The position numbers and the translations under genes are program-made. Shown here in pieces: positions 24,205 to 64,000 of a DNA stretch of 64,000 nt. How positions within the stretch are numbered: the stretch's first letter is position 1; every line of letters starts with the position of its first letter. The notes below the pieces were generated by a model. It did not search any database. It was not told where the DNA came from and saw only the letters and a list, made by a program, of their open reading frames with translations. The stretch is from positions 100,721,122 through 100,785,121 of the forward strand of contig OW121744.1 of assembly GCA_933228675.1 (NCBI GenBank), read 5' to 3'. The stretch comes from Stomorhina lunata (Eukaryota > Arthropoda > Insecta > Diptera > Rhiniidae).

Positions 24205-25442
<1,238 letters not shown>

Positions 25443-38936: not shown

Positions 38937-40672
38937 TATTCCAAAAAAGACTTCTATAGAAATGTCATTTTATATGGAGAAGTTTTTTTCCCATAGTGTA
39001 ATTATAACAAGTGACTGCAACTCGTCAGCTGTTTTTCAAATTTTGTTCTAGTTCAAAATTTGTTTAAGTTTTCTAATGTCAAATTATTGTTGTTATTCTG
39101 AATTGTCGAATTGTTGTTTTAAATTTTGGCATTAAAAAACTTATTATCCAACAACAAAATCTATGTTGTTTTTGGCTTGTTGTATTTGTTGTAGCCATGC
39201 GTTAACCTGTATATATGAGCCTTGTTTTTTTCCTAAGTCTTTTGTTTTTATTTATTTAAATTATGTTTATACTAAAAAAATGTTAGTTTCATTCAACCCA
39301 CAACTTTTCTGTAGAAAATTCATACTTTCTATAACTTTTATATCAAAATTTATTGTGCTTTGTAAGAGCCACCTGTTATTTTTGCTAAAGGTATCTAATA
39401 ATTTAAGTTTTTTGCTGATTAACTGCCTTTAATATGAACATCATAGATAAGTATTATTAAGCAGTTTTTAGTCAATAGTTTTAAATATGTTTTGTCAATT
39501 CATTTGACTGCTCATTTAGATGACTTTGCTTTTGTTGGAAGTCGATTTAACTTTCAAAACTTTCTTTATTTTATTTTATTTTTGTTTCAACTTAAGACAT
39601 GTCAACGCTAATCAATTCTTTTTATCCATTAACTAATAAACATTTATTAAATAATTATTATGAGAAAGATAAAAGACATACGTTTTTTTTTAATATGCAT
39701 TACACGTTCATATTAAAATGTGACACATGAGTTTGAGAATTTCTGAAAATTTTATAATTAATAATTTTATATATAAGCATTAAATTTGAAGTTAAAAGCC
39801 ACATCATTAACGGGTTTTTTTTTCGAAATTTATTTTGTTTGATTTTTTTCATTTTTTAGAATTTGAACATGAGAAAAAATATGAATTTTAAGGCCTTAAC
39901 GGATAATCGGCTAATTTATTGTTCAAATAGTAAATATTATTTTAGTCATTAGTTCCTCGTATTTAGAACTTTAGTGTGATTGCATATTTTTAATATTCAT
40001 TTATTTTCTTAAAGATTATGTTTTAGTCATTGAGACATTAAACATCGTTTGAGCCCTCTTCTTCAAAAGGCTAACATTTTGTTTCGGTATGTGTGTGTGG
40101 TCTTTTTAGGTTCTTGAAATCGCTTAATTTTTATTTAAATTCTTTATACTGAACTCAAAAATTCCTTACATAATATTTTCCATTTTTTCCTTTCGATAAT
40201 TAAATTTGTGGTAACTCCCCGTTTGTCTGGGGCCCTGTATATACATATAGAAATATTTTGTTATATATTATTTTGGTTATAGTGATTTCTTGAGGTTTTT
40301 TGTACATATTTAACTTTGTTATAATAAAGTAATTAATTAAGTTAAAAAGTTTAACAAAAAAATTCCATATGAAAAAATTGTAGCAATCACAAGCTTTTGC
40401 AGCTGAAACTTCTGTGTGTGGCAACGAATGGCCTATAAAATATAAGAAACGATTAATAATAATTTTAGCAATTTAAAGTTCAGCAGTTTTTTAAACTCGT
40501 GCCAAAAAACTTAAACAATAAATCAGCAGGAACGAGAAAATATAAAAAATAAAGAAAATAGAAAAAGAAAGTACAAAATGTTAATAATTTAACAAAAAAA
40601 AATGTTAAATTTTTACTTTCCTCAATCAATATCAATGTTTATACCATAACATTTCAAAAGAAACATAAGCGA
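38937..40672. other. AT-rich spacer between A6 and the first B array
   Basis: ORFs of 74-89 codons here (39163-39432 plus, 40424-40200 minus) have no recognisable domain. It contains one copy of the dispersed motif (39232). No gene supported. Confidence 0.4.
39232..39249 (+). repeat. Dispersed motif CYTAAGTCTTTTGTTT, copy 1
   Basis: Exact CCTAAGTCTTTTGTTTTT, preceded by a T-rich run. Confidence 0.7.
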
Positions 40673-41344
40673 TATCATGACTTTCTATAGAAAAGTTGGC
40701 GATAGTAAGAGTTTTCTATATAAAAGAGTTTTCTATAGAAAAGTTGGCGATATTAAGAGTTTTCTATAGAAAATTTGGTGATATTATGAGTTTTCTATAG
40801 AAAAGTTGGCGATAGTAAGAGTTTTCTATAGAAAAGTTGGCGATAGTAAGAGTTTTCTATAGAAAAGTTGGCGATAGTAAGAGTTTTCTATAGAAAAGTT
40901 GGCGATATTAAGAGTTTTTTATAGAAAAGTTTGCGATAGTAAGAGTTTTCTATAGAAGAGTTTTCTATAGAAAAGTTGGCGATAGTAAGACTTTTCTATA
41001 GAAAATTTGGTGATAGTAAGAGTTTTCCATAGAAAAGTTGGCGATAGTAAGAGTTTTCTATAGAAAAGTTGGCGATAGTAAGAGTTTTCTATAGAAAAGT
41101 TGGCGATAGTAAGAGTTTTCTATAGAAAAGTTGGCGATAGTTAGAGTTTTCTATAGAAAAGTTGGCGATAGTAAGAGTTTTTTATAGAAAAGTTGGCGAT
41201 AGTAAGAGTTTTCTATAGAAAAGTTGGCGATAGTAAGAGTTTTCTATAAAAAAGTTGGCGATAGTAAGAGTTTTCTATAGAAAAGTTGGCGATAGTTAGA
41301 GTTTTCTATAGAAAAGTTGGCGATAGTAGGAGTTTTATATAGAA
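40673..41344 (+). repeat. Satellite family B, array B-a (31-bp unit, GTTGGCGATAG linker)
   Basis: About 21 units of GTTTTCTATAGAAAAGT plus TGGCGATAGTAAGA. The TATAG-centred palindrome is one base short of perfect here, and the linker differs from other B arrays (GGC...TAAG instead of ATC...GATG) while keeping GATAG as found in array B-e. It runs without spacer into family A array A7 at about 41344. Confidence 0.95.
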
Positions 41345-42888
41345 AAGGAAATTTATTTATAGGAAATTTTTCAAAAATTTCTTATTTTTATAGGAAATTT
41401 TTCAAAAAATTTCTTATTTTTATAGGAAATTTTTTAAAATTTCTTATTTTTATAGGAAATTTTTTAAAATTTCTTATTTTTATAGGAAATTTTTTAAAAA
41501 TTTCTTATTTTTATAGGAAATTTTTTAAAAATTTATCATTTCTATAGGAAATTTTTATAGGAATTTTTCAAAAAATTTCTTATTTTTATAGGAAATTTTT
41601 AAGAAATTTTTTATTGTTATAGAAAAGTTTTCAAAAATTTTCTTATTTTTATAGGAAATTTTTCAAAAATTTCTTATTTTTATAAAAAATATTCAAAAAT
41701 TTCTTATTTTTATTGCAATTTTTTCAAAAATTTCCTATTTTGATAGGAAATTTTTCAACAATTTCTTATTTTGATAGGAAATTTTTCAAAAATTTCTTAT
41801 TTTTATAGGAAATTTTTCAACAATTTCTTATTTTTATAGGAAATTAAAAAAAAATTTATTTCAATAGGAAATTTTTCAAAGATTTCTTATTTTTATAGGA
41901 AATTTTTCAAAAATTTCTTATTTTTATAGGAAATTTTTCAAAAATTTCTTATTTTTATAGAAAATTTTTCAAAAATTTCTTATTTTTATAGGAAATTTTT
42001 CATAAATTACTTATTTTTATAGGAAATTTTTCAAATATTTCTTATTTTTATAGGAAATTTTTAAAAATTTCTTATTTTTTTAGGAAATTTTTTTTAAATT
42101 TCTTATTTTTTTTTTATATTAATAGGAATTTTTTTTTAATTTTTTATTTTTATAGGAAATTTTTCAAGAATTTCTTATTTTTATTGGAAATTTTTCAAAA
42201 ATGTCTTATTTTTATAGGAAATTTTTCAAAAATTTCCTATTTTTATAAGAAATTTTTCAAAAATTTCTTATTTTTATAGGAATTTTTCAAAAATTTCTTA
42301 TTTTTATAGGAAATTTTTCAAAAATTTCTTATTTTTATAGAAAATTTTTCAAAAATTTCTTATTTTGATAGGAAATTTTTCAAAAAAATCGTATTTTTAT
42401 AGGAAATTTTTCAAAAATTTCTTATTTTTATAGGAAATTTTATTTTTATAGGAAATTTTTCAAAAATTTCTTATTTTTATAGGAAATTTTTCAAAAATTT
42501 CTTATTTTTATAGGAAATTTTTCAAAAATTTCTTATTTTTATAGGAAATTTTCCAAAAATTTCTTATTTTTATAGGAAATTTTTCAAAAATTTTTTATTT
42601 TTATAGGAAATTTTATTTTTATAAGAAATTTTTTAAAAATTTCTTATTTTTATAAGAAATTTTTCAAGAATTTCTTATTTTTATAGGAATTTTTTTTTTA
42701 ATTTCTTATTTTTATAGGAAATTTTTTTTTTTTAATTTTTATTTTTATAGGAAATTTTTTTAAAATTTCTTATTTTTATAATAAGTTTTTTAAAAATTTC
42801 TTATTTTTATAGGAAATTTTTTAAAAATTTTTTATTTTTATAGGAAATTTTTCAAAATTTTCTTATTTTTAAAGGAAATTTATAAGTA
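41345..42888 (-). repeat. Satellite family A, array A7 (- orientation), inside a B array
   Basis: About 50 units of the CTTATTTTTATAGGAAATT variant, with some A-rich deletions. Left junction: GTTTTATATAGAAAAGG fuses to AAATTTATTTATAGG. Right junction: AAAGGAAATTTATAAGTAGG leads into B-type sequence. Family B material on both sides means A7 expanded inside, or was inserted into, array B-a. Confidence 0.95.
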
Positions 42889-44883: not shown

Positions 44884-46654
44884 AAGTCATAACAATAATA
44901 ACTTTTCTATGAAAAAGTAATTTTCTATAGAAAAGTCATCACAGCGATAACTTTTTTCTAAAACAATTTGGCATTGTGATGATCTTTTTATAGAAAAGCC
45001 ATCACGATGACAACTTTTCTATAGTAATGTTATCATCACGATGAATTCTCTATAGAAAAGTTATCATTGTGATGACCTTTCGATAGAGAACATATAGAAC
45101 ACATAGAAAAGATGTCATCAAGATGACTTTTCTATAGAAAAGTTATCATTATGATGACTTTTCTATAAAAAAGTTATCATTGTGATGACTTTTCTATAGA
45201 AAAGTTATCATTGTGATGACTTTTCTATAGAAAAGTTATCATTGTGATGACTTTTCTATAGAAAAGTTATCATTGTGATGACTTTTCTATAGAAAAGTTA
45301 TCATTGTGATGACTTCTATAGAGAAGTTATCATTGTGATGACTATTCTATAGAAAAGTTATCATCAAGATGACTTTTCTATAGAAAAGTTATCATTGTGA
45401 TGACTTTTCTATAGAAAAGTTATCATCAAGATGACTTTTCTATAGAAAAGTTATCATTGTGATGACTTATTACTGTGATGACTTTTTTATAGAAAAGTTA
45501 TCATTGTAATGACTTTTCTGTATAAAAGTTATCATTGTGATAACTTTTCTATAGAAAAGTTATCATTATGATGATTTTTGTATAAAGAAGTTATCATTGT
45601 GATGACTTTATCATACAAAAGTTATCATTGTGATGACTTTTCTATAGAAAAGTTATCATCAAGATGACTTTTCTATAGAAAAGTTATCATTGTGATGACT
45701 TTTCTATAGAAAAGTTATCATTGCGATGACTTTTCTATAGAAAAGTTATCATTGTGATGACTTCTATAGAGAAGTTATCATTGTTAGAGAAGTTATCATT
45801 GTGATGACTTTTCTATAGAAAAGTTATCATTGTGATGACTTTTCTATAGAAAAGTTATCATTGTGATGACTTTTCTATAGAAAAGTTATCATTGTGATGA
45901 CTTTTCTATAGAAAAGTTATCATTGTGATGGCTTCTATAGAGAAGTTATCATTGTGATGACTATTCTATAGAAAAGTTATCATCAAGATGACTTTTCTAT
46001 AGAAAAGTTATCATTGTGATGACTTTTCTATAGAAAAGTTATCATCAAGATGACTTTTCTATAGAAAAGTTATCATTGTGATGACTTATTACTGTGATGA
46101 CTTTTTTATAGAAAAGTTATCATTGTAATGACTTTTCTGTATAAAAGTTATCATTGTGATAACTTTTCTATAGAAAAGTTATCATTATGATGATTTTTGT
46201 ATAAAGATGTTATCATTGTGATGACTTTATCATACAAAAGTTATCATTGTGATGACTTTTCTATAGAAAAGTTATCATCAAGATGACTTTTCTATAGAGA
46301 AGATATCATCAAGATGACTTTTCTATAGAAAAGTTATCATTGTGATGACTTTTCTATAGAAAAGTTATCATTGTGGTGACCTTTCTATAGAAAAGTTATC
46401 ATTGTGATGACTTTTCTATAGAAACGTTATCATTGTGATGAATTTTCTATAGAGAAGTTATCATTATGATGACTTTTCTATAGGAAAGTTATCATTATGA
46501 TGACTTTTCTATAGAAAAGTTATTATTTGGATGACTTTTCTATACAAACATTATCATTGCGATGACTTCTCTGTAGAAAAGTTATCGTTGTGAAGATTTT
46601 TCTATAGAAAGGTTATCATTTTGATGAATTGTATATAGATATTATCATTGTGGT
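44884..46654 (+). repeat. Satellite family B, array B-b (loop ATTGT)
   Basis: About 57 units of ACTTTTCTATAGAAAAGT plus TATCATTGTGATG, with a minority of TATCATCAAGATG units. Marker variants GACTTATTACTG (45464 and 46083) and GACTATTCTATAG (45340 and 45959) recur at an exact 619-bp offset, so about 20 units were duplicated as a block. Edges are decayed. Confidence 0.97.
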
Positions 46655-48111
46655 AATAACAGTCTCTAGTTCTATTCAACTTTTTTTTTTAAGTCCGTCC
46701 ATCCACTTAACATTAATTCTGTTCTAATGGTTTTGTCTAAGCCCACAAAGAATTTTCAAAGCTCTGATAATTTTGTAAAGAATTTAATACTAGATTTTAT
46801 TTGAAATATTTTTCGAAATTAATTTTTTATAATAGATAAATATGTTAAGCTAGGGTTGTGCAATATTGTATAGAAACCAGTATTTTTACTTGTTTTTTGT
46901 GTTAAAGCAAATTTGTTATGTCTGTTATTTGGTTGTCGGTCTTGCTGCCCAAACAAAAACTACCGTTGACATATATTTTCAAAAAAAAAAAATTTTTTGT
47001 CAAACAAAAATAAATAAACAGCTTTTATATTTTTAGGTTTTTATCATTTTTAATGTTATAAAAAAAAATCCAAAGATAACTGTTAAAATTTTATCAGCTT
47101 AAGGTTTTTGCTGTAGAGACTTACCTAAATAAAAATTTAGGTTTTGTGTAGAAAAAAAAAACTAATTAAAAAAGATGAAATTGTAATTTATGGCTGGACA
47201 ATAGCAAAAATTTAATTTACAGATTTTTAATGTTATTCATTATCGTGTTGTATAATGTGCAAAATTAAGCAAAGAAAAATATTAGGAAAATAGGGAAAAG
47301 TGTCATCTTGATGACGAAAAGATGATTTTTATTTTCATCCTAAATTTTTGCTAATTATCAACAACAATTATGTCATAATTATCTTTCGCATTAAATTTAA
47401 TTTCACTTTACTTTTTTCAAAAATGCGCTGCTTCTTTTATTTTTTAATTAAGCCAAAAAAATATTTAAGGCCATAAAATTTATGCCAAGAAAACTTTAAA
47501 ATAAGCCATAAAAAGATGAACATAATTAAGTGAAAGTGAACCACACAAATCGCAAATATCCAGTTTGTTAAACATTTTTTTTTTTTTTTTTTTTTAAATA
47601 CATTTAATAAAAATTCACATACTCTTGAGATTAAACGTGTGAGTGTTAACGAGTTACCAAAACAAAAAATTTCACAATATTTCATTTAAAAAGCAATTAA
47701 ATTTTAAACTATATATGAAAAATGCAACTTTAACTAAATAATTCCAAGACAAGTAAAATATAACCTCGTTTTTAATTTTATTTTTTTACAAAACATTATT
47801 TTAAGAAGACAAAAAAAATTGGTTTGCACCAAATTTGGTTTTAGTCGTAATGTAACAAGATACTCCAAGTGGGTTTGTTATTATTGTAGGCTTCAATTAA
47901 TTAATGAGTTTTGTTTTCTTTTAAAAAACTTTGTCATTGACTGATATTTTAATGGTAATATTATTTTAGTGTTTTTTAATAAACTTAATAAGTTGAAATA
48001 CAAAAGTTGTAATTTGAGAAAAACTAACCAAACTCTAGACTTGATGGCGATTGTCTAGAGCTAAGTGATGCAATATATCAAAACCACATAAATCTTCCAA
48101 AGAAAAATAAA
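46655..48111. other. AT-rich spacer between B-b and B-c
   Basis: Homopolymer-rich sequence; an 82-codon minus ORF (47685-47437) includes a poly-Lys run from an A-tract and is spurious. No gene seen. Confidence 0.45.
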
Positions 48112-50843
48112 AATATCATGACTTTTCTATAAAAAAAAAGTTAACGATAGCAAGACTTTTGTATAGAAAAGTTAACGAAATCATCAAATTGTTAAAGAAA
48201 AGTTATCATTGTGATGACTTCTTTATAGAAAAGTTATCATCAAGAGTTTTTTTCAATAGAAAAGTTATCATCAAGATGAATTTCTATGCAACAATTATTA
48301 TCAAGATGACTTTTTTATAAAAAAGTTATCATTGTGATGACTTTTCTACAGAAACCTTATCATTGTGATGACTTTTCTAAAGCAAAGTTAAAATTGTGAT
48401 GACTTTTCTATAGAAAAGCTATCATTGTGATGACTTTTCTATAAAAAAGTTATCATTGTGATGACTTTTTTATAGAAAAGTTATCATTGTGATGACTTTT
48501 TTATAGAAAAGTTATCATTGTGATGACTTTTCTATAGAAAAGTTATCATTGTGATGACTTTTCTATAGAAAAGTTATCATTGTGATGACTTTTCTGTAGA
48601 AAGTTATCATTTTGATGACTTTTCTATAGAAGAGTTATCATTGTGATGACTTTTCTATAGAAAAGTTATCATTGTTGTGACTTTTCTATAGAAGAGTTAT
48701 CATTGTGATGACTTTTCTATAGAAAAGTTATCACTTTTCTATAGAAAAGTTATCATCAAGATGTTTTGTCCACAGACAACTTATCATCACGATGACTTTT
48801 CTATAGAAAAGTTATCCTCAAGATGACTTTTCTATAGAAAAGTTATCCTCAAGATGACTTTTCTATAGAAAAGTTATCATCAATATGACTTTTCTATAAA
48901 AAAGTTATCATTGTGATGACTTTTCTATAGAAAAGTTATCATTGTAATGACTTTTCTATAGAAGAGTTATCATTGTGATGACTTTTCTATAGAAAAGTTA
49001 TCATTGTGATGACTTTTCTATAGAAGAGTTATCATTGTGATGACTTTTCTATAGAAAAGTTATCATTGTGATGACTTTTCTATAGAAAAGTTATCATTGT
49101 GATGACTTTTCTATAGAAGAGTTATCATTGTGATGACTTTTCTATAGAAAAGTTATCATTGTGATGACTTTTCTATAGAAGAGTTATCATTGTGATGACT
49201 TTTCTATAGAAGAGTTATCATTGTGATGACTTTTCTATAGAAAAGTTATCATTGTCATGACTTTTCTGTAGAAAAGTTATCATTGTGATGACTTTTCTAT
49301 AGAAAAGTTATCATTGTGATGACTTTTCTATAGAAGAGTTATCATTGTAATGACTTTTCTATAGAAAAGTTATCATTGTGATGACTTTTCTATAGAAGAG
49401 TTATCATTGTGATGACTTTTCTATAGAAAAGTTATCATTGTGATGACTTTTCTATAGAAAAGTTATCATTGTGATGACTTTTCTATAGAAAAGTTATCAT
49501 TGTGATGACTTTTCTATAGAAAAGTTATCATTGTGATGACTTTTCTATAGAAAAGTTATCATTGTGATGACTTTTGTATAGAAGAGTTATCATTGTGATG
49601 ACTTTTCTATAGAAAAGTTATCATTGTGATGACTTTTCTATAGAAGAGTTATCATTGTGATGACTTTTTATAGAAAAGTTATCATTGTGATGACTTTTCT
49701 ATAGAAGAGTTATCATTGTGATGACTTTTCTATAGAAAAGTTATCAACAAGATGACTTTTCTATAGAAAAGTTATCAACAAGATGACTTTTCTATAGAAA
49801 AGTTATCATTGTGATGACTTTTCTATAGAAAAGTTATCATTGTGATGACTTTTCTATAGAAAAGTTATCATTGTGATGACTTTTCTATAGAAAAGTTATC
49901 ATTGTGATGACTTTTCTATAGAAAAGTTATCATTGTGATGACTTTTCTATAGAAAAGTTATCATTGTGATGACTTTTGTATAGAAGAGTTATCATTGTGA
50001 TGACTTTTCTATAGAAAAGTTATCATTGTGATGACTTTTCTATAGAAGAGTTATCATTGTGATGACTTTTCTATAGAAAAGTTATCATTGTGATGACTTT
50101 TCTATAGAAGAGTTATCATTGTGATGACTTTTCTATAGAAAAGTTATCAACAAGATGACTTTTCTATAGAAAAGTTATCATTGTGATAACTTTTCTATAG
50201 AAAAGTTATCATTGTGATGACTTTTCTATAGAAGAGTTATCATTGTGATGACTTTTCTATAGAAAAGTTATCAACAAGATGACTTTTCTATAGAAAAGTT
50301 ATCATTGTGATAACTTTTCTATAGAAAAGTTATCATTGTGATAACTTTTCTATAGAAAAGTTATCATTGTGATGACTTTTCTATAGAAAAGTTATCATTG
50401 TGATGACTTTTCTATAGAAAAGTTATCATTGTGATGACTTTTCTATAGAAAAGTTATCATTGTGATGACTTTTCTATAGAAAAGTTATCATTGTGATGAC
50501 TTTTCTATAGAAGAGTTATCATTGTGATGACTTTTCTATAGAAAAGTTATCATTGTGATGACTTTTCTATAGAAGAGTTATCATTGTGATGACTTTTCTA
50601 TAGAAAAGTTATCATTGTGATGACTTTTCTATAGAAAAGTTATCATTGTGATGACTTTTCTATAGAAAAGTTATCATTGTGATGACTTTTGTATAGAAGA
50701 GTTATCATTGTGATGACTTTTCTATAGAAAAGTTATCATTGTGATGACTTTTCTATAGAAGAGTTATCATTGTGATGACTTTTCTATAGAAAAGTTATCA
50801 TTGTGATGACTTTTCTATAGAAAAGTTTTTATTGTGATGATTT
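48112..50843 (+). repeat. Satellite family B, array B-c (loop ATTGT, higher-order structure)
   Basis: About 88 units with the B-b consensus. A GAAGAG variant of the core alternates with GAAAAG over long stretches, giving 62-bp dimers. The rarer CTTTTGTATAGAAGAG unit appears at 49571, 49973 and 50686, offsets of 402 and 713 bp (13 units less one base, and 23 units), so there is higher-order repetition above the dimer. A few TATCAACAAGATG and TATCCTCAAGATG units mark local sub-blocks. Confidence 0.97.
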
Positions 50844-51851
50844 AAGGTTTTCTTTCCTAAAACTAAAATTTCAATGAACACTAACATAATAAGTATTTTT
50901 TCAAAGCCTTTTTTTAAATTTAGCTTAAAGCCATTCATAAACTTGCGTATGCCAGGAAAACATAACTAAAGCCTTAAGTCCTATAATTATTTTCTATTCA
51001 TTTTTTTCAAATCATTTATTCATGTTAACTAAAAGACTTGGTTTTAATGGAATATAAACAAATTTATACAATACAAAACAAAACTTTTTTTATTATATCT
51101 GTACTTTAACATAATTGATTTACTTCCGTTTACATTTTAAATGCTTCTTTTTTATTTTATTTTAATGTTTATTTTAAATAATAATGCCATTCTTTAAGGC
51201 AGGTTAGTTACTACTTTTTACCTATGATTATATATATTTTAATAAACAACTAACTTTTTTCATTTGATTGTTTATATTTTTTACTGATTTTATGTAAATT
51301 TGTTTTGTTTGAGTACGATTTGACGGATTTCCTTTTAATTCTAGTTAGAGAAATTTTTATAATCATAAAATTGAAGAAGTTTAATATAATAAAAAAGTAT
51401 ATGTTTTGGTTTAAACAATTTTTAAAATAATTGATGATTTCTTTTCTTTAAGACTAGATTGATTTCCGTTTGTTTTGTTTGAAATTGATTGAAATGTTTA
51501 GTATTTATTTTGAAAATCATTTCCGTTTTATTTTTGCTTATTAAATGAAATAGTTAGGAGTACATATATTTCTTTAGTTTATAAATATTTAATAATGGTC
51601 TTTTCTATATTTCTATTTAAAGTAATTGGTCTTGCCTTTTTAAGTTGGTATAAACTTAATTATAAGTTAATGGAATAAGCTTTAAAAGTAAGTGTTTAAT
51701 AGTTTTTAACTTTATTTTAATTGGAATTATACAAAGAAGTTAATAAAACAAAAGACTTAGGAAACGAACTTTTTTTGAATACTTGTAAAGAAAACGCCCA
51801 AAAGAACTTTTAAAAACAAAAATTATCAAACAAAGACCTTTAAACAAAAAC
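50844..51851. other. AT-rich spacer between B-c and B-d
   Basis: No gene recognised. It contains one dispersed motif in minus orientation about 90 bp before array B-d. Confidence 0.45.
51745..51761 (-). repeat. Dispersed motif CYTAAGTCTTTTGTTT, copy 4 (inverted)
   Basis: Plus strand AAAACAAAAGACTTAGG, followed by AAACGAAC; reverse-complement orientation. Confidence 0.7.
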
Positions 51852-53150
51852 GTCTATAGAAAAGTAATCATTTGGATAACTTTCCTATAGAAAAGTCATC
51901 ATTTGGATATTTTTTATACAGAAAAGTCATCATTTGGATAACTTTTCTATAGAAAAGTCATCATTTGGATAACTTTTCTATAGAAAAGTCATCATTTGGA
52001 TAACTTTTCTATAGAAAAGTCATCATTTGGATAACTTTTCTATAGAAAAGTCATCATTTGGATAACTTTTCTATAGAAAAGTCATCATTTGGATAACTTT
52101 TCTATAGAAAAGTCATCATTTGGATAACTTTTCTATAGAAAAGTCATCATTTGGATAACTTTTCTATAGAAAAGTCATCATTTGGATAACTTTTCTATAG
52201 AAAAGTCATCATTTGGATAACTTTTCTATAGAAAAGTCATCATTTGGATAACTTTTCTATAGAAAAGTCATCATTTGGATAACTTTTCTATAGAAAAGTC
52301 ATCATTTAGATAACTTTTCTATAGAAAAGTCATCATTTGGATAACTTTTCTATAGAAAAGTTGTCATTTGGATAACTTTTCTATAGAAAAGCCAACTTCT
52401 GGATAAATTTCTATAGAAAAGTCAACATTTGGATAACTTTTCTATAGAAAAGTCATCATTTGGATATTTTTTATACAGAAAAGTCATCATTTGGATAACT
52501 TTTCTGTAGAAAAGTCATCATTTAAATATCTTTTCTATAGGAAAGTCTATATTTGGATAACCTTTATATTGAATAGTCATCATTTGGATAACTTTTCTAT
52601 AGTAAAGTCATCATTTGGATAACTTTTCTATAGAAAAGTCATCATTTGGATAACTTTGCTATGGAAAAGTCATCATTTGGATAACTTTTCTATAGAAGTG
52701 TCATAATTTTAATAACTTTTCTATAGAAAAATCATCATTTGGCTAACTTTTCTATAGAAAAATCATCATTTGGCTAACTTTTCTATAGAAAAGTCATCAT
52801 TTGAATAACTTTCCTATAGAAAAGTCATCTTTTGGATAACTTTTCTATAGAAAAGTCATCTTTTGGATAACTTTTCTATAGAAAAGTCCTCTTTTGGATT
52901 ACTTTTCTATAGAAAAGTCATCTTTTGGATAACTTTTCTATAGACAAGTCATCATTTGGATAACTTTTCTATAGAAAAGTCATCTTTTGGATGACTTTTC
53001 TATAGAAAAGTCATCTTTTGGATGACTTTTCTATAGAAAAGTCAACATTTGGATAACTTTTCTATAGAAAAGTCATCAGTTGGATAACTTTTCTATAAGG
53101 GTCATAATTTGAATACAATTTTTTAGACAGTCAAAACTTTTTTAATAAAA
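51852..53150 (-). repeat. Satellite family B, array B-d (inverted, loop CAAAT)
   Basis: About 42 units reading ATAACTTTTCTATAGAAAAGTCATCATTTGG on the plus strand in pieces: the core palindrome plus CATCATTTGGATA. This is the reverse of B-b/B-c/B-e order. On the minus strand the linker is TATC-CAAAT-GATG. The left part is very uniform; the right part contains CATCTTTTGGAT and CAACATTTGG sub-blocks. Confidence 0.96.
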
Positions 53151-53950
53151 AGTCATGGTTTTTCTTTATGTAAATTTTTACTAAATAAACAAAAATTCTA
53201 TTGAATTTTTACCTTTTATTTAAGCCATTAATTTTTATTGCAAAGCTACTAGAATTTTTTTTCATAAAATTACTATTATTTGGTATGCAATTTATCTGGA
53301 TAATTTCATTTATTTTTTATATATTGTTGGCTAGTTACTAACATACCAATCAAATCACGTATGAATTACAGAAAATCATCAGGTGTTCGTTCTATAATAG
53401 AAAAACTCACAATCATTAACATATAACCACCCGGCTTAGAGTTACCCAGCAGTTGCAAGAAATTAATTGATTTCAAAACTAGTAATGAAGGGACGCAAAA
53501 TTTACAAGACTTAAAATGTTTTGAACCCTCTTGTTAAATTTGTCTTTGTGTAACTAATGTTGAGACAAATTTTCAATTTTGAACTAATGGGTACCTCAAG
53601 CAAACTGTCTGTCTATCTTTATATTCAATTTATAAAAATCTAAACATAGCAACAACCATATCCAACATTAAAGACAATATACAGGTCTTTTCACAAAAAT
53701 TATTAATAGTGTAGAAAATTTTTCAAAAAAAAACCAAACAAAATATTTCATTGAAAATTGTTTATTTAAACATTTATTGCGTAAAAACTACTCAAACTGA
53801 AATTACGAATAAAAAAATGTTAAGGAATTATTATTAAAAACAAACAAAAATATTACCACAAATTATGAAGAATATTATTATAAACAATAATCAAGAAAAA
53901 CAACAACAACTACAACCATATAACGATGTCAATTATTAACAAGTTTTTAG

Positions 53951-53966
53951 CTTAAGTCTTTTGTTT
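53951..53966 (+). repeat. Dispersed motif CYTAAGTCTTTTGTTT, copy 5
   Basis: CTTAAGTCTTTTGTTT followed by GCTGAGAGCTTAAA. Confidence 0.7.
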
Positions 53967-54013
53967 GCTGAGAGCTTAAAAAACGATTTAGCAATCGTTA
54001 AGCATGTTTGCTG

Positions 54014-54030
54014 CTTAAGTCTTTTGTTTT
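54014..54030 (+). repeat. Dispersed motif CYTAAGTCTTTTGTTT, copy 6
   Basis: CTTAAGTCTTTTGTTTT preceded by CATGTTTGCTG. Confidence 0.7.
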
Positions 54031-54499
54031 GGTCTCTAAAAACAACCTGGCAAACAATCAATGAATTATTGTTGCTTAAAACCATTAACAATTTGTCTTA
54101 AATCATTAAATAATTTTTCATAGCCATTTGCTTATTGTAATATTTATACAAGAAACATACAAAAAAAAACGACAGCCAATAATGTGTGAAAAATCTGGTA
54201 TTTAAATTAACATAATAATAACAAATTATTAAATAAAAAAAAACAAAGAAAATTAAATTTATCACTTAGTATTAAAATTTTTTATTGAAATTTAAAAAGG
54301 TGATAATAATTTGATAGAAATATTGCAAAAATTTAATTTTGAGTGAGCAAAGATAATAAAATTATTTAAAAGGTCTTTGTAAATGAATGCAAACAATATC
54401 AAGGTCTGTAAAAAGGCCAAAGAAAAAAAACTGAATTTGACCTTAATCGTTTACATTTTTATAGTCGATTTAAATATATAAGTTTACATTACGACTACT

Positions 54500-56062
54500 T
54501 GTCTTTAAAAAGTTATCAATAGGATAGATTTTTATAGAAACAGTATCAATAAATGGCTTTTTTATAGAAAAGTTATCGATACAATGACTTTTCTATAGAA
54601 AAATTATCAATAGGATGACTTTTCTATAGAAAAGTAATCGATATGATGACTTGTCTAAAGAAAAGTTATCGAAAGGATGACTTGTCTGAAGAAAAGTTAT
54701 CTATAAGATGACATTTCTATAGAAAATATATCGATAGGATGACTTTTCTTTAGAAAAGTTATCGATATGATGACAGGATACCTTCCCTATAGAAAAGTTA
54801 TCGATACGATAACTTTTCTATAGAAAACTTATCGATAGAATGAATTTTCTATACAAAAGTTAGCGATAGGATGACTTTTCTATAGAAAAGTTATCGATAA
54901 GATGACTTTTCTATAGAAAAATTATCGAAACGATGACTTTTCTATAAAAAAAAATTATCGATAGGATGACTTTCCTATAGAAAAGTAATCGATAGGATGA
55001 CTTTTCTATAGAAAAGTTATCGATAGGATGAATTTACTATAGAAAAGTTATCGATACGATAACTTTTCTATAGAAAAGTTATCTATAAGATGACTTTTCT
55101 ATAGAAAGGTTATTAATAGGATGACTTTTCTATAAATAAGTTATCGATAGGATGAAGTTATCGTTAGGATGACTTTTCTATAGAAAAGTTATCGTTAGGA
55201 TGGCTTTTCTATAGAAAAGTTATCGTTAGGATGACTTTTCTATAGAAAAGTTATCGATAGGATGACTTTTGTATAGAAAAGTTATCGTTAGGATGACTTT
55301 TCTATAGAAAAGTTATCGTTAGGATGACTTTTCTATAGAAAAGTTATCGTTAGGATGACTTTTCTATAGAAAAGTTATCGATAGGATGACTTTTCTATAG
55401 AAAAGTTGTCTATAAGATGACTTTTCTATAGAAAGGTTATTGATAGGATGACTTTTCTATAAATAAGTTATCGATAGGATGAAGTTATCGTTAGGATGAC
55501 TTTTCTATAGAAAAGTTATCGTTAGGATGGCTTTTCTATAGAAAAGTTATCGTTAGGATGACTTTTCTATAGAAAAGTTATCGATAGGATGACTTTTGTA
55601 TAGAAAAGTTATCGTTAGGATGACTTTTCTATAGAAAAGTTATCGTTAGGATGACTTTTCTATAGAAAAGTTATCGATAGGATGACTTTTCTATAGTAAA
55701 GTTATCCATAGGGGGACTTTCTTTAGAAAAGTATTTAATAGTATGACTTCTACGAAAAGGTTATCGCCAGAATGACTTTTTTATGGAAAAGTTATCAAAA
55801 GGATGACTTTTCTATAGAAAATATATCGATACGATGACTTTTCTTCTGAAGAGTTATCGATGGAATGACTTTTCTTTAAAAAAGTTATCAACAGGATGAC
55901 TTTTCTTTAGAAAAGTTATTGATTTGATGACTTTTCTATTGAAAAGTTATCGATAGGATAACTTTTTTAAAAAAGTTATCGATAGGATAACTTTAAAAAA
56001 AAAAAGTTATCGATAGGATGACTTTTTTATAGAAAGTTATCGATAGGATTACCTTAAAAAAT
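54500..56062 (+). repeat. Satellite family B, array B-e (loops GATAG and GTTAG)
   Basis: About 50 units of the core palindrome plus TATCGATAGGATG, with a run of TATCGTTAGGATG units in the middle. A truncated unit (ATAGGATGAAGTTATCG) and its neighbours recur: TATAAATAAG at 55131 and 55458, an offset of about 327 bp, indicating a block duplication. Both shoulders are decayed. Confidence 0.96.
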
Positions 56063-56734
56063 GAGTGTATTAATTTCATTTAACTTTCTTTACATAATTA
56101 TTGAGGTAGTAACTCGGTTTTTCTTCCAACATTATTAGTATTCAACTCTCACTATTGAACACTTACTCAGACCTTATTTGTAGAACTAACTTTTATATAA
56201 ACCAAAAAAAAAAGAAAACCAAATCGCTAAAAAATATTGTATTTAAAAACAAAAAACGAGAAACAAAACAAAAACCTCCAACCAATTTAACTTTAAACAT
56301 AATTGAAAACAGCCACCTCTGGGCCTTTTTAAACCAATTGAAAGCACAAAATCGTTCCAAAACCTTTAACAACAAAATAAACCAAATAAAATTGAATCGA
56401 AGAAAAAACAAATAACACACAAAACAAATTTACCAAATTTGGTTTTAAAATTGTTGTATTTACAGTTCCCAGTAAATAAGCAATAAACAGACGTCAATAA
56501 AACAAATCAATATCTGGAGAAAAACCAGCAACACAAAAAAAAACAACTGCAACATTGTTGACATATGGTCAACATTGCAACACGTGCGTTGCTCTTTTTT
56601 TGCTGTATTTATTGCTTTGTTTTTGCCACAAACTGCAGAAATGTCTTGCTTTCTAGCTGTAACTTGTTGCTGTTTTATTGCTAATAAGAAAGTGCTGTCA
56701 ACTAAACGAAAAGAAAAATGAAGAAAAGATAGCG
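56063..56734. other. AT-rich spacer between B-e and B-f
   Basis: ORFs of 75-86 codons on both strands (56155-56420) are Lys/Asn/Phe-rich noise. No gene supported. Confidence 0.45.
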
Positions 56735-58083
56735 TTGTGATAAGTATAGAAAAGTATTTGTTATTTTTATGACTTTTCTATAGAAAATTTATCGATGTGA
56801 TGAATGTTTTATAGAAAATTTATCTTTGTGATGAATTTTCTATAAAAAAATCTATCATTGTGATGAATTTTCTATAGAAAATTTACCATTGCGATCAATT
56901 GTCTATACAAAATTCATCGTTGTGATAAATTTTCAATAGAAAATTTAACGTTGTGATGAATTTTCTACAGAAAAGTTATCATTGTGATTACTTCATCATT
57001 CTGATGATTTTCTTATAGAAAACTTATCATTGTGACGACTTTTCTGTAGAAAACTTATCATTGTGATAACTTTTCCTTACAAAAGTTATAGATGTGATGA
57101 CTTTTCGATAAAAAAGTTATCATTGTGATGACTTTTCTATAGAAAAGTTATCATTGTGATGACTTTTCTATAGAAAAGTTATCACTGTTATGACTTTTCT
57201 ATAGAAAAGTTATCACTGTTATGACTTTTACCATTGTGATGACTTTTCTATAAAAAAGTTATCATTGTGATGTCTTTTCTACAGAAAAGTTATCATTGTG
57301 ATAACTTTTCTATAGAATATTTATCATTGTGATGAATTTTCTATAGACAATTTATAATTGTGATGAATTTTCTATAGAAAATTTATCATTGTGATGAATT
57401 TTCTACAGAAAATTTATCAATGTGATGAATTTTCTACAGAAAGTTTATCATTGTGATCAATTTTCTATACAAAATTTATCGGTGTGATAAATTTTCTATA
57501 GAAAATTTAACGTTGTGGTGAATTTTCTATAAAAAAGTTATCACTGTAATGACATTTTTATAGAAAATTTATCATTCTGATGACTTTTTTATAGAAAAGT
57601 TATCACTGTGATGAATTTTCTATAAAAAAGTTAACATTGTGTTGACTTTTTTAGAGAAAAGTTATCATTGTGATGACTTCCCTAGAGAAAACTTGTCATT
57701 GTGATGACTTTTCTATAGAAAAGTTATCATTGTGATGATTTTTCTATGGAAATGTTATCATTGTGATTTTTATAGAAAAATTATATTTGTGATGACTTTT
57801 CTATATAAAAGTTATCGTTGTGAAGACTTTTCTATAAAAAAGTAATCGTTGTGATGACTTTTCTATAGAAAAATTATTATTGTGATGACTTTTCTATAGA
57901 GAAGTTATCATAATGATTATCATTGTGTTGACTTTGGCTGACTTTTCTATAGAAAATTTATCGTTTGGATTACTTTTCTATAGAAAAGTTATCGTTTGGT
58001 TTACTTATCTAGCGAAAATTTATCGTCTGGATTACTTTTTTAAATAAAAGTAATCGTTTGAAAGACTTTTCTGAAGAAAGGTT
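56735..58083 (+). repeat. Satellite family B, array B-f (loop ATTGT, AATTTT core variant)
   Basis: About 43 fairly diverged units. Many have AATTTTCTATAGAAAATT instead of ACTTTTCTATAGAAAAGT: the C-to-A change on the left is matched by G-to-T on the right, so the palindrome is kept. The right end (57950-58080) shifts to a GTTTGGATTAC linker related to B-d. Confidence 0.93.
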
Positions 58084-58120
58084 ATGGTTATGTCAATAAT
58101 AATTAAATTCGAATGTTTTA

Positions 58121-58137
58121 AAAAACAAAAGACTTAG
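58121..58137 (-). repeat. Dispersed motif CYTAAGTCTTTTGTTT, copy 7 (inverted, one mismatch)
   Basis: Plus strand AAAAACAAAAGACTTAG followed by AAAACAAAC, about 40 bp after the end of array B-f. Confidence 0.65.
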
Positions 58138-59243
58138 AAAACAAACTTTGCACAAAAGTTATTACAACGAACCACTTTTCTATAGTTTGATCATTCAATA
58201 CTTTTTTCTTCAACTTCACTGTTTTCCTGGTTTACTTTTGACATCACTTCTTTTACCAGAATTTTTTAGTTTTGTTGACGTTTTTTCTTGTTTATAGTCT
58301 GGTCTGTAATTTTTTTTCTCCAATTTTATATTTCGTTTAAACATTATTCAAGTGTTTGTAAATGTTGAAGAGTGAATTTCGCGGGAATTCATCACTCAAG
58401 CGTGCTTAGGTGAATTTGACCACAAATGGAGTTATCAAACCAAATACGTCTTTTTTCATATTGAATATTTTGTTAGAGTTTTCGTTTGTTTTTTTTGTTT
58501 CGTGTTTGTCGTCTGCATTTGTTGCCTCTAGTGCTGCCCAAGTGAGTGTTTAACTCTTTAAAGGATTTACTTAGATTCTAAAGAACTCTAAAACTGAAGT
58601 TTTTCTTTTTGAATTTTTTGTCGTTTCTTACAAACTGTTGTTTTCCTTGTAGTACTTGTGTTGTTAGTCGTAGTCTAAGTTTTCTTCTGATTGTTGTTTC
58701 AAGTCTCAAAGGGTATGTTTTTATAAGTGTTTAGGTATTTTTTTTTTTTGTCTACAATGAATTTCTGTTGCTTCTTGCTTTGGCTTTGGCCAGAGGAGTG
58801 GCCTGTGTTATCTTGGCTACTGTATTTTTATAAGTAATTTCTTAACATGACCACTTATTAGACATGTTTGGTAACATGACGCAAATCAATCTTTTTCTCT
58901 AAAAAAAACAACAAAACTTATAAAAACAACAACAACAAAACATCTAAACGTGCTTTAGTTTGTACAAGATTTTTCCTCTTCTAATGGTTTCTTAAGTTTC
59001 TTTTAGTTTTTCGTAGCCTTTAAAAATTGTAGAGTCTTAAAAAACGACAACAACATTTGGTTATTGTTGTTATTGGTCTTGTTTATTGCTGTGGCCTGAA
59101 ATTATTATAGAGATGTTATTTTTAATACTATTAAAACTATATAATGAAAGTTTCTTTCGTTTTTTGTTTAATCATTTTGCAATACATATATTTAGCATAA
59201 TTTCTAATAATTTTCTTAGGAAGCTACTGCTATTTTTAAAACT

Positions 59244-59261
59244 AAAAACAAAAGACTTAAG
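59244..59261 (-). repeat. Dispersed motif CYTAAGTCTTTTGTTT, copy 8 (inverted)
   Basis: Plus strand AAAAACAAAAGACTTAAG followed by AAAGAAACTAG, about 130 bp before array B-g. Confidence 0.7.
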
Positions 59262-59394
59262 AAAGAAACTAGTTTTACAAAAAAAAAGCATTTTCTAAAT
59301 TCCTGCATAAAGAATAGAATTTTAAAGCAGAAATTAAAACACTTAACAAAAAATTTAAACTATAAATAACTTTTTAATAGAAATCTATAACTCT

Positions 59395-60965
59395 TTCTAT
59401 AACGAAGTATCAAGATAATAACATTAATATAGAAAATTCATTATAACGATAACGTTTCTGTAGAAAAGTCAGAAATCTTATCGTCATAGAAAAGTTATCA
59501 CCACTATAACCTATCTCTAGAATTGTATTTTTTTGTCAACACAATGATATATTCTCTATAGAAAAGTCATCACAATGATATAAAAATTACCACAATGATA
59601 ACTTTTTTATAGAAAAGTCATGATAAGTTTTTTATAGAAAAAACATCAAGTTATCACAATGACAACTTTTCCATAGAAAAGTTATCACAATAACAATTTT
59701 CTATAGAAAAGTTATCACAATGACAACTTTTCTATAGAAAACTTATCACAATGACAACTTTTCTATAGAAAGGTTATCACAATGACAACTTTTCTATAGA
59801 AAAGTTATCTTAATGACAACTTTTCAATAGAAATGTTTTCACAATGATAACTTTTCTATAGAAAAGTTATCACAATGACAACTTTTCTATAGAAAAGTTA
59901 TCACAATGACAACTTTTCTATCGAAAAGTTATAACAATGACAACTTTTCTATAGAAAAGTTATCACAATGACAACTTTTCTATACAAAAGTAATCACAAT
60001 GACAACTTTTCTATAGAAAACTTATCACAATGACAACTTTTCTATAGAAAAGTTATCACAATGACAACTTTTCTACAGAAAAGTTATCACAATGACAACT
60101 TTTCTACAGAAAAGTTATCGCAATGACAACTTTTCTACAGAAAAGTTATCACAATGACAACTTTTCTATACAAAAGTAATCACAATGACAACTTTTCTAT
60201 AGAAAAGTCATCACAATGACAACTTTTCTATAGAAAAGTCATCACAATGACAACTTTTCTATAGAAAAGTCATCACAATGACAACTTTTCTACAGAAAAG
60301 TTATTACAATGACAACTTTTCGATACAAAAGTAATCACAATGACAACTTTTCTATAGAAAAGTCATCACAATGACAACTTTTCTATAGAAAAGTCATCAC
60401 AATGACAACTTTTCTATAGAAAAGTCATCACAATGACAACTTTTCTATAGAAAAGTCATCACAATGACAACTTTTCTATAGAAAAGTCATCACAATGACA
60501 ACTTTTCTATTGAAAAGTCATCACAATGACAACTTTTCTATAGAAAAGTCATCACAATGACAACTTTTCTATAGAAAAGTCATCACAATGACAACTTTTC
60601 TATAGAAAAGTCATCACAATGACAACTTTTCTATAAAAAAGTCATTACAATGATAACTTTTCTATAGAAAAGTCATCACAATGATAACTTTTCTATAGAA
60701 AAGTCATTACAATGATAACTTTTCTATAGAAAAGTCATCACAATGATAACTTTTCTATAGAAAAGTCATCACAATGATAACTTTTCTATAGAAAAGTCAT
60801 CACAATGATAACCTTTTTATAACAATGATAACTTTTTTATAGAAAGGTCATGATATTTTTAACTTCTCTATAGAAAAGTCATAAAATCTGTATATTTTTT
60901 ATATAAAGGTCACTGTATCTGTATCTTTTTTATAAAGAACAATGATAAGTTCTTTTGTAACTTTT
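59395..60965 (-). repeat. Satellite family B, array B-g (inverted, loop ATTGT on minus strand)
   Basis: About 50 units. On the plus strand the linker reads TATCACAATGACA or CATCACAATGACA, and CATCACAATGATA towards the right. The last form is the exact reverse complement of the B-b consensus, so this array is inverted. There is a left-to-right shift of variants: TTATC then TCATC units, then GATAAC units. Edges are decayed. Confidence 0.96.
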
Positions 60966-61537
60966 ATATAAAGATCTTATGAAATCATCACATCGATAAA
61001 CTACTATTTATAATGATTTATAATATTTCTAAAACTAAAATCAACATTTTTCTATAAGAATTATTCTATTGTTATAGATTTAACAAAAAATTTTAACAAA
61101 AACATGTTTCTTATCAATTTTAATTATAAAAATTTTTTTATTTATTAAATAGTTGACTTCAATGATTTGACATTAATAGATTTGAAATGAAAATAATAGA
61201 ATTTGTTCTTTATTGTATTTTCTATAAATTCTTTAAAACTGATGACAATTAGAATAGACTTTCTATTTTCTTTCTTTTTCTATCATAGAGGCTTCTAAAA
61301 ATGTGTTGATGAGTTTTGAAACTGTTACAGGTTGAATGAAAGTTGTGCTAGAATTGTTTGGTAAAGAAGATGATGATGATCATGTATCAACCAGATAAAT
61401 TCAATTATTAACAATTTGAAAGAAATAAATTTGATGAACAAATTCTTAAACTTAATTAAATAGAGATAAATTAAGCATTAAATACTTTTTTTTATTAAAA
61501 TATGGAAGAAATGCTAACAAGCAAAACAGGTTTGTTT

Positions 61538-61557
61538 CTTAAGTCTTTTGTTTTTTT
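61538..61557 (+). repeat. Dispersed motif CYTAAGTCTTTTGTTT, copy 9
   Basis: CTTAAGTCTTTTGTTTTTTT preceded by CAGGTTTGTTT. Confidence 0.7.
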
Positions 61558-61755
61558 AAGGAAATATTTAAGAAAAGTAGGTTTTTTTGTAAAAAATGGC
61601 TTTAAATGTTTAAACTAAGAAATTTTTCACATAATTTTTTAACTAACATAATTAAATCAATGCAAGGTAATTGTTTTTAATTAAAAAGAAAATCTCTGGG
61701 GTCAGCTAAATTAATTGTTCCTTAATATCCCCTAATGAATTCATCAGGTTAATTT

Positions 61756-61770
61756 CCTAAGTCTTTTGCT
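61756..61770 (+). repeat. Dispersed motif CYTAAGTCTTTTGTTT, copy 10 (one mismatch)
   Basis: CCTAAGTCTTTTGCT preceded by CAGGTTAATTT. Confidence 0.6.
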
Positions 61771-62825
61771 TAGTTTAGTTTTTTCTTTTTTTTTTCATTT
61801 TCATTACGTTTACAGAATATTTTGAAATTTTCAATTGCTGGTGATTAATTTTATGACCAAAAACACTTTTGAGAAAAATGCATATGAGGCCAAGTCTTTA
61901 ATAGACAATTTTGTAATAATTTGATCATTTTACAAAACAAGCCATAAAATTTGAACATTAAATGTTACATAACTTTTAACATCTTTTGAATTACACAAAT
62001 TGTTTGCTACAAAAGCATCGATCATTATGACAAGTTTCAAATGATGGTGTGTATCTTTCGCTCTCGCCTAAAAGCAATAAAATAGATAAAACGCCAACAA
62101 ACGGGCAACAAAAATGTTAGAGAAGATGTTGAAACCCAATGAGGTGGTAGCATGAATATGGCCTCTTACGTCTGAATGCAACATTTGTTTCTCTGCTATC
62201 ATAGCAATATAATATAAATGTTTTTTTCTTATTTTATATTATACAACCCAAATGCAATTCTTTCTTGTCAAAATATTTAATAAAATTGTTTTCCATTAAT
62301 TAAAAGCAACTTCTACATAAAAGTAATTCTCCTCTAATCTATCCTCTCTATTACTATTAGTAATTCTCTTAATTAATGACTATTTACCAACCCACCATCA
62401 ACTGGGTTATAACCGATTTTGATAAATCGCTGTAAATACATTAATCTTGGCCATTAATTGAAGTTGACAAATATCCACATATTTTTGCTTCCCTTTTTGC
62501 ACATATTTAAAATTTTTATAAAAGTTTAGTTAAAATTAAATGGAATTACTTGTTAGAGATTATGAACAACAAAAAATGTTATTTCTTAATAAAAATAGGT
62601 GGACAGTAGCTGGTTTATAGATCTTCCTTGTTCTGTTAAGTGTCTGTTTGTTGTTATTGATTAGATCTTATATTAAAAGGCAAAAAGAAAAAACTAGTTA
62701 TTTTCTAAAAGTTTTCGAAGGAGTTTCGAGCTTTATGAGTAAAGAAATTTATAACGCAGGTCTCATGGTCAGGAGAATATAAATGCAAATTTAATTCTCA
62801 TTTCATGATGCAAATTCTTAATACA

Positions 62826-64000
62826 AAAAAGTTATCCACCGGATGACTTTTCTGTAGAAAATTTATCAACAGGATGACTTTTGTATAGAAAAGTTATCAA
62901 CAGGTCGACTTCTTTCTACAGAAAAGTTATGGAAAGGATAACTTTTCTATTGAAAAGTTATCGAAATGATGACTTTCCTATAGAAAAGTTATCGAAAGGA
63001 TTACTTTTCTACAGAAAAGTTATCGAAAGGATGACTTTTCTATAGAAAAGTTATAGAAAGGATGACTATTCTATAGAAAAGTTATCGTAAGGATGACTTT
63101 TCTATTTAAAAGTTATTGAAAGGATGACCTTTCTATAGAAAAGTTATAGAAAGGATGACTTTTCTATAGAAAAGTTATCGTAAGGATGACTTATCTATTT
63201 AAAAGTTATTGAAAGGATGACCTTTCTATAGAAAAGTTATCGAAAGGATGAATTTTCTATAGAAAACGTCACGAAATTATGACTTTTCTATAGAATAGTT
63301 ATCGATAGGATGACTTTTCTATAGAAAAGTTATCGAAAGGATGACTTTTCTATAGAAAAGTTATCAAAAGGATGACTTTTCTATAGAAAAGTTATCGAAA
63401 GGATGACTTTTCTATAGAAAAGTTATCGAAAAGATGACTTTTCTATAGAAAAGTTATCGAAAGGATGACTTTTCTATATAAAAGTTATCAAACGGATGAC
63501 TTTTTTATAAAAAACTTATCGAAAGGATGTCTTTTCTATACAAAAGTTATCGAAATGATGACTTTTCTATGGAAAAGTTATCGAAAGAATGACCTTTCTA
63601 TAGAAAAGTTATCAAAAGGATTAGTTTTCTATAGAACAATTATCGGTAGGATGACTTTTCTTTAGAAAAGTTGTCAATAATATGACTTTTTTATAAAAAA
63701 TTTATCGAAAAAATAACTTTTCTATGGAAAAGTTATTGACAGGATCACTTTTCAATAGAAAAGTTATCGAAAGAATGACTTTTCTATAGAAAAGTTATCG
63801 AAAGAATGACTTTTCTATGGAAAAGTTATCGAAAGGATGACTTTTCTATAGAAAAGTTATCGAAAGAATGACTTTTCTATAGAAAAGTTATCAAAAGGAC
63901 GACTTTTCTATAGAAAAGTTATCGAAAAGAAGACTATTTTATAGAAAAGTTATCGAAAGGATGACTTTTCTATAGAAAAGTTATCGAAAGTTTGACTTTT
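62826..64000 (+). repeat. Satellite family B, array B-h (loop GAAAG), continues past window
   Basis: About 38 units of the core palindrome plus TATCGAAAGGATG. It starts with a few decayed units (TATCCACCGGATG, TATCAACAGGATG) and is still running at the last base. A 66-codon ORF (63465-63665) is the repeat read through. Orientation is the same as B-b, B-c, B-e and B-f. Confidence 0.96.

Follow-up and report, generated by a model that had tools for sequence, protein, structure and literature searches.

The 1.688 satellite of Drosophila forms short, dispersed arrays with local homogenisation, from a monomer of ∼359 bp that is not known to have a palindromic core, and in primate alpha satellite the CENP-B box is a conserved box within the repeats. 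Passages of PMC3694981 that touch on this box describe satellites of Meloidogyne in similar terms, with a conserved box in otherwise divergent repeats, type switches in the box, and variability that is uneven along the monomer. For insect satellites, dyad symmetry and curvature have been reviewed (excerpts of PMC8122249), and short, long, and macro-dyads are described from the satellites of Tribolium madens (excerpts of PMC13081366). Arms can also be made to match without selection on pairing, through the correction of quasi-palindromes by template switching (excerpts of PMC8794818, PMC8604942, and PMC3820800). Here, a stretch of 64,000 nucleotides from Stomorhina lunata (contig OW121744.1, our C11:100721122-100785121; the whole stretch is called the window below) was analysed for its 31-bp tandem repeats, which an earlier note had described as a constant hairpin stem around a five-base loop that differs from array to array. 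These repeats are probably a very abundant, dispersed insect satellite DNA built on a constant palindromic core, with arrays that were founded by few units and then amplified. The stem with its variable loop is a local version of this wider pattern and not an RNA-hairpin barcode.

A palindromic core on a 31-bp lattice

The window is AT-rich (23.8% G+C). Its 15 tandem arrays have a period of 31 and belong to family A (seven) or family B (eight), and each is made of head-to-tail copies of one unit, as is usual for satellite DNA. From seven of the family B arrays (B-b to B-h), an ungapped scan that allowed ≤9 mismatches over 26 fixed positions extracted 339 units in total, which share AAAAGTTATC-N5-GATGACTTTT-CTATAG; the pattern AAAAGTTATCN5GATGACTTTT, searched on both strands with ≤3 mismatches, matched 584 times in the window, against 0.09 expected. 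The basic unit would be a 14-bp palindrome, TTTTCTATAGAAAA, placed every 31 bp and followed by a 17-bp interior that differs between arrays. In these terms the B interior would be GTTATC-N5-GATGAC, the stem of the earlier note would comprise the flanking AAAA/TTTT and the six-base arms, and the loop would be the centre of the interior. The arrays appear to be noncoding, as no stop-to-stop frame of 100 codons is contained in any of them; a spacer frame at 56460-56777 reaches 38 bases into the edge of B-f in the same frame scan.

The assembly that was searched comprises 728,027,400 bases in 104 contigs, and its insect origin is borne out by 136 matches to the odorant receptor family PF02949, which had none in 14 control genomes; counts of the large families are lower bounds, and the pattern places listed all lie on contigs 1 and 2. 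The exact core TTTTCTATAGAAAA occurs at least 928,301 times (control, 32), on average once per 784 bp, and exact CTATAGAAAA-N17-TTTTCTAT at least 442,342 times (control, 0), which corresponds to 13.7 Mb or 1.9% of the assembly. Counted separately for each strand, the B unit with ≤3 mismatches was found 23,677 and 24,680 times (controls, 0 and 1), and one exact family A unit 95,871 and 100,440 times (196,311 total), so that both the 31-bp frames and the family A units are present in high copy across the assembly. Nearly all exact cores in the window and the fetched loci (1,230 of 1,240, most of the loci having been picked for arrays) have a further core with ≤3 mismatches 28-34 bp away, and the core is constant across repeats whose interiors are varied; since tests of core conservation require the core to begin with, only the core abundance, that is, the TTTTCTATAGAAAA count, is independent evidence. 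The exact patterns had no relatives in viral contigs, and four single 20-mer matches in bacterial and archaeal genomes were taken as chance. A literature search of limited coverage, which does not show the repeat to be unpublished, found no title describing it.

Interiors were compared over 62 arrays, drawn partly from the window and partly from 34 fetched loci (L013-L046; L047-L050 gave none) and identified by a 31-bp core spacing, cores with ≤2 mismatches, and ≥4 units. Of B type, defined by ≤3 arm differences after orientation, were 39 of the 62; constancy of the arms is favoured both by this limit and by the use of the B pattern to select loci. Exactly GTTATC/GATGAC is found in 22 of the 39, and 15 different loops occur as printed, among which ACAAT (two arrays) is probably ATTGT read in the opposite orientation. 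The loop accounts for 0.65 of the interior diversity in the 39 B-type arrays and for 0.61 in the 32 outside the window, and adjacent arrays have a common loop in 8 of 25 cases, compared with 0.09 for random pairs.

Two further kinds of array were noticed on the same core. At L022 2601-3095, 15 units combine the B core with A-like arms (interior TTTTTC-GTTAT-CAAAAA) and are intermediate between families A and B. Ungapped homology of the two families is unsupported, as a match equal to the observed one arises in 206 to 572 of 2000 symmetric shuffles. Beside B arrays, at L013 2102-3071 and L015 3611-4149, lies a satellite family of 29-bp period that has the TTTTCTATAGAAAA core and an interior like ATTTTATACCGAAAA, which weakens the idea of a universal 31-bp helical period.

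Variation between and within arrays

The majority loops given in the earlier note were recovered. ATTGT prevails in B-b (44884..46660, plus strand; 28 of 52 units, with ATCAA in 8 as the second loop), B-c (48100..50845, plus strand; 70 of 84, the first units having AATAT, GATAG, and GAAAT), B-f (56740..58090, plus strand; 18 of 40, with blocks in which pair 5/21 changes from G-C to T-A), and B-g (59370..61020, minus strand; 36 of 43, with A8 replaced by G in 30 of the 43). CAAAT is the loop of B-d (51850..53130, minus strand; 29 of 39), GATAG and GTTAG are those of B-e (54500..56060, plus strand; 13 and 11 of 44), and GAAAG is that of B-h (62825..64000, plus strand; 18 of 37), which continues beyond the window end with an identical loop (L021 28-769).

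Variance was analysed in 329 of the 339 units, after 10 with >6 mismatches had been dropped. Between arrays, variation is concentrated in the loop, which carries 83% of the variance, more than any other run of 5 bases among the 31; the confinement to the loop that had been claimed does not extend to variation within arrays, where the loop, with 5 of 31 positions (16%), has a share of 26%. Array consensi differ from the ATTGT unit by 13 changes in the loop and 2 elsewhere, whereas within arrays 59 distinct loop variants were counted and 251 at the other positions (p = 9e-8); a parsimony count of the consensus loop changes gives 8:2 (p = 8e-5). Mutations within arrays fall on nearly all sites (per site and array, 1.69 variants in the loop vs. 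1.38 outside it), and in arms and core they are most frequent at G/C bases. Variants at a frequency of 10% or above make up 15 of 59 in the loop vs. 14 of 251 in the arms, and, with base class matched and arrays pooled, variation in loops is 1.5 to 2.7 times that in arms and core, an effect that B-d lacks.

The share of the majority loop among the 329 units runs from 13/42 in B-e up to 35/41 in B-g and 70/82 in B-c. Mixing of loops between arrays, which if free would by the earlier note's own criterion refute its account, was seen as blocks and at edges: apart from the eight ATCAA units of B-b and the first units of B-c, the latter array also holds AACAA, CTCAA, and ATCAA, and the outer units of B-g have GATAC and GATTT. 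Loop barcodes unique to an array are ruled out by this mixing at edges and by the presence of ATTGT in four arrays. Homogenisation per array is true only in part: it is seen for B-c, B-d, B-e, and B-h, whose units are nearest to their own array, but not for B-b and B-f, which on average are nearer to B-c, and B-g ties with B-c at a similarity of 0.88 within and between. With distance, unit similarity hardly falls in B-c, B-d, B-e, and B-h and decays strongly in B-f and B-g, and B-b contains an internal tandem duplication whose copies are 20 units apart (18 unit pairs, identity 0.977). Deletions might be centred on the core hairpin: the 30 events listed comprise 11 distinct deletions of 9-25 bp, 8 of which span the core centre and 4 the loop centre, few events in all.

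The arrangement of stem, five bases, and stem, said to occur in every array, is present in B-b to B-h but broken in B-a, an array that the earlier note omitted. B-a (40669..41347, plus strand) consists of ∼20 units of AAAAGTTGGC-GATAG-TAAGAGTTTT-CTATAG in which the core is kept and the stem is unpaired (loop GATAG in 17 and GATAT in 3; the ungapped scan gave 22 units, the first and last of which are not B-a units). It is like B-e in its GATAG loop and has 5 arm differences from it. In family A (unit C-AAAAATTTCCTAT-TTTT-ATAGGAAATTTTT), the unpaired bases are alike across the consensi of all seven arrays (fixation index, Fst, 0.05), and the chief difference lies in an arm. One of these arrays, A-7 (41348..42882, plus strand), lies inside B-a, with its 5′ switch at TATAGAAAAGGAAA and a B-a-like stretch from ∼42885 (boundaries by eye); the six others, also of period 31, are at 5222-8090, 9880-13240, 13960-16190, 17300-19900, 32740-35810, and 36760-39000. 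Because family A loops hardly differ and B-a changes its arms while keeping the B-e loop, drifting loops around a fixed stem characterise subfamily B and are not a rule. What is supported of the earlier note's expectation is the concentration of between-array change in the loop, described above, and the complementarity of interiors across very different array types, described below. Outside the arrays, an isolated single unit is found at 39299..39339 on the minus strand (loop GAAAG, core TTTTCTGTAGAAAA).

Interior symmetry and its explanations

The ATTGT unit matches the reverse complement of the tandem unit at 26 of 31 bases, which 0 of 2000 shuffles reach, and units with other loops do so at 24 of 31 (1 to 6 of 2000 shuffles). 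As the unit is nearly identical to its own reverse complement, its arms can pair either across the loop or across CTATAG; the stem pairing of the earlier note does fold but is only half of a longer symmetry. Complementarity is also seen among interior types: in the 62 arrays, 17 types that are ≥4 differences apart have on average 4.06 of 6 pairs, vs. 2.82 with shuffled 3′ halves (0 of 5000 shuffles), with ≥5 pairs in 9 of the 17 and ≤2 in 3, and pairs 1, 4, and 5 use three or four different pair types. The eight types with ≥5 G/C bases have 3.50 vs. 2.57 pairs (102 of 5000 shuffles). Weaker than the test of the 17 types are those of interiors taken from search lists (one per array, judged by position among the matches listed): for sets of 34, 16 (11 nonredundant), and 20 arrays, 203, 111 (167), and 104 of 5000 shuffles reach the observed value, the conditioned pairs being excluded from the 34-array set (C at interior position 2) and the 20-array set (C at position 1), and an 8-array set from the core-N17-core list shows no clear excess (735 of 5000). 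The pairing that the earlier note expected to be kept was not restored opposite the C at interior position 2, the partner of which is G in 0 of 34 arrays.

If the repeats are satellite DNA of this kind, an array would be founded by one or few units with a given interior, then be extended by local tandem duplication, and then decay by point mutation, an order of events that is our reconstruction; extension in tandem is suggested by the multi-unit duplication in B-b and by the distance-independent similarity in four arrays. Neighbouring arrays may generally switch interior at or next to the core, to judge from three places identified by eye (B-a to A-7 at TATAGAAAAGGAAA, L015 near 4149, and L013 near 3067). 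The core could be constant since it is recognised by amplification, recombination, or a bound dimeric protein, and the self-complementarity of interiors could result from template switching between palindromic cores, which would copy arm onto arm at founding. Alternatively, symmetric units might simply amplify better.

Several observations weigh against this account. Units of B-b are slightly less similar to one another (0.86) than to B-c (0.88), as are those of B-f (0.79 within, 0.83 to B-c). When each loop replacement is counted as one event, the contrast between loop and other changes falls to 3:2 (p = 0.054). At A/T sites within pooled arrays, arms vary at 0.040-0.045 and loops at 0.108, although not in B-d, and such lower arm variation may reflect constraint on the arms; founding alone also leaves without explanation that the 22 B-type arrays with identical arms are found in a set whose loops take 15 forms. 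The type-level excess is restricted to pairs 1, 4, and 5, with none in pairs 2, 3, and 6. Genome-wide, C5-G21 (pair 1) was counted 3,529 times vs. 3,300 expected (1.07 times) and C6-G20 (pair 2) 1,109 times vs. 549 (2.0 times), and at these two interior pairs most such changes lack compensation. A fourth type switch (L013 near 3940) is located in an arm, outside the core. Finally, the loop is inverted in 0 of 581 units that carry their array's loop in either orientation, a count that sets aside 340 units whose loop is a different one and 141 whose stem marker is unclear and that array-wide fixed inversions escape; this counts against the simplest form of template switching, which predicts some.

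Selection on a binding site offers a different explanation of the same contrasts, possible but rather doubtful. The 26-bp palindrome GATGACTTTTCTATAGAAAAGTTATC or the 14-bp core would be the site of a putative dimeric DNA-binding protein, with the 5-bp loop as a free spacer, and purifying selection would leave the observed contrast of arms and loop between and within arrays, the lower variability of arms than loops within arrays, and exact cores in the abundance counted here (928,301). A/T tracts phased at ∼10 bp point weakly the same way (in 33 to 492 of 3000 symmetric shuffles the values are as high as those observed). However, mutations within arrays do affect arms and core, G/C bases above all, so that single units are not protected, and B-a and other types change their arms. 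A more specific version, which we regard as unlikely, has a dimeric DNA-binding protein dedicated to the TTTTCTATAGAAAA lattice, possibly a domesticated transposase, which would both drive the amplification of arrays and mark them in chromatin, the interiors being free cargo and their symmetry coming from template switching.

Transcription of the arrays, with the 10-bp stem kept for an RNA hairpin and the loop as its label, seems very improbable. The unit folds well as RNA across the loop (-8.5 kcal/mol, z -6.3), the G-U wobble is tolerated on one strand, and type-level complementarity would also be expected of paired arms; yet the hairpin across CTATAG is equally available and folds equally or better (-10.6 kcal/mol as RNA; as DNA, -5.1 vs. 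-5.3 across the loop, about equal), the reverse strand has A-C in place of G-U and folds at -4.3, and the B-a stem is all but absent (-0.8 kcal/mol, z -0.28). Over a span of 20 kb the arrays alternate in orientation, and the genome-wide counts of B units are balanced between the strands. The covariation check proposed in the earlier note gave no sign that pairing is kept unit by unit: 8.201 Watson-Crick pairs were observed vs. 8.211 with arms shuffled in blocks of six units (819 of 1000 shuffles reach the observed value), and without B-f 8.244 vs. 8.270 (996 of 1000). Across the core, neighbouring units have 8.348 pairs and units two or three apart 8.337 and 8.314, that is, no covariation beyond background. 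The sole clear compensated change, B-f pair 5/21, is a block; its association has p = 0.0002 for arms facing each other over the loop, p = 0.004 for those over the core, and a weak p = 0.04 for the unit two places on, and the arrays do not show the compensatory changes of a structured RNA. Joint changes exceed expectation across the loop (21 vs. 12.9) and the core (14 vs. 7.8), but since only 3 and 6 are Watson-Crick they mostly mark degenerate units, and a stem held by within-unit covariation is ruled out. Variants at ≥12% keep the pair in 5 of 9 cases vs. 26 of 127 for singletons (p = 0.03), as a selected stem would have it, but the difference is lost with transitions only (5 of 7, p = 0.43); pairing specific to one strand is unsupported, as the G-U strand remains paired in 26 of 51 singleton transitions. 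A tRNA scan of the window found none, and an Rfam search of the window at the gathering threshold gave 0 matches. Selection on an RNA stem is not supported, and an RNA function is unnecessary.

Least credible of all is the insertion of a 26-bp palindromic element with a 5-bp target duplication followed by tandem expansion, which would make the loop a target site and would fit the exactly five contiguous variable bases, the fixed 31-bp period, and the array-wide majority loops, but the loops are not independent 5-mers (ATTGT and GATAG each in 7 of 39 arrays, with GATAG, GATAA, GATAT, and GAAAG related), no 5-bp copy of the loop flanks the solitary unit at 39299 (one unit, by eye), and arms change too.

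Read as a satellite on a palindromic lattice, the repeats matter in two respects. Because hundreds of thousands of units share core and period and differ in interior, the constant needs for array spread (core, period, and symmetry) become separable from the parts that are free. The contrast of nil covariation at the unit level with complementarity at the type level likewise makes it testable whether the dyad symmetry of a satellite is selected or made by template switching at founding.

Spacers, flanks, and comparison with known satellites

Outside the arrays, self-comparison of the window detected no homology between array flanks other than a short motif common to flanks in the B half. A non-tandem motif, TAAGTCTTTTG, is found only in spacers of the second part of the window, at 39234, 43036, 43094, 51747, 53953, 54016, 58124, 59247, 61540, and 61758, and is followed by TTT at 9 of these 10 places; as an 11-mer it has 10 copies after 39,000 vs. 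0.11 expected, and exact AAAGACTTA is absent from the first 39 kb of the window. TAAGTCTTTTGTTT was counted 2,249 times genome-wide (control, 50), and five clusters of 45-164 kb on contig C1 take in 94 of the 100 places listed; the 98 homeobox matches listed include one at a distance of ∼53 kb from one cluster and none near the remaining four. Regions 1-5000 and 29489-31952 are diverged tandem or segmental repeats that self-comparison does not relate to the 31-bp arrays, and a TCTG microsatellite of ∼98 copies at 24946-25320 is the source of long spurious open frames. Among the fetched loci, orientation inverts inside one array at L016 ∼4935, with the joint just after a unit's loop (by eye).

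The present repeat resembles the 1.688 satellite in its short, dispersed arrays and, for part of them, in local homogenisation, and differs from it in the 31-bp unit and the palindromic core. With the satellites of Meloidogyne it has in common a short conserved motif among divergent tandem repeats, switches at this motif, and uneven variability of the monomer; with those of the CENP-B box type it has in common a short motif that is constant among divergent repeats, a comparison of motif organisation and not of sequence. Relative to all such conserved-box satellites, however, the box is here a perfect 14-bp palindrome that takes up nearly half of a 31-bp monomer, and the arrays are short and dispersed. 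The likeness to insect dyad satellites, as far as excerpts of their descriptions go, consists of inverted repeats with possible hairpins or cruciforms in the monomers and of inverted sub-arrays (here one, in L016). T. madens differs, in the same excerpts, by inverted repeats of <10 bp in subunits of ∼110 bp, longer arms of ∼300 bp, and megabase (peri)centromeric arrays (PMC13081366), whereas the arrays of the present repeat are short, contain two dyads per 31 bp, and lie scattered over the contigs where sampled. Compared with quasi-palindrome correction, the companion product of that process, spacer inversion, is absent from the 581 units counted above. The repeat thus fits a known kind of satellite and is extreme within it in the size of the palindromic core, in having two dyads per 31 bp, and in the many interiors carried on one lattice.

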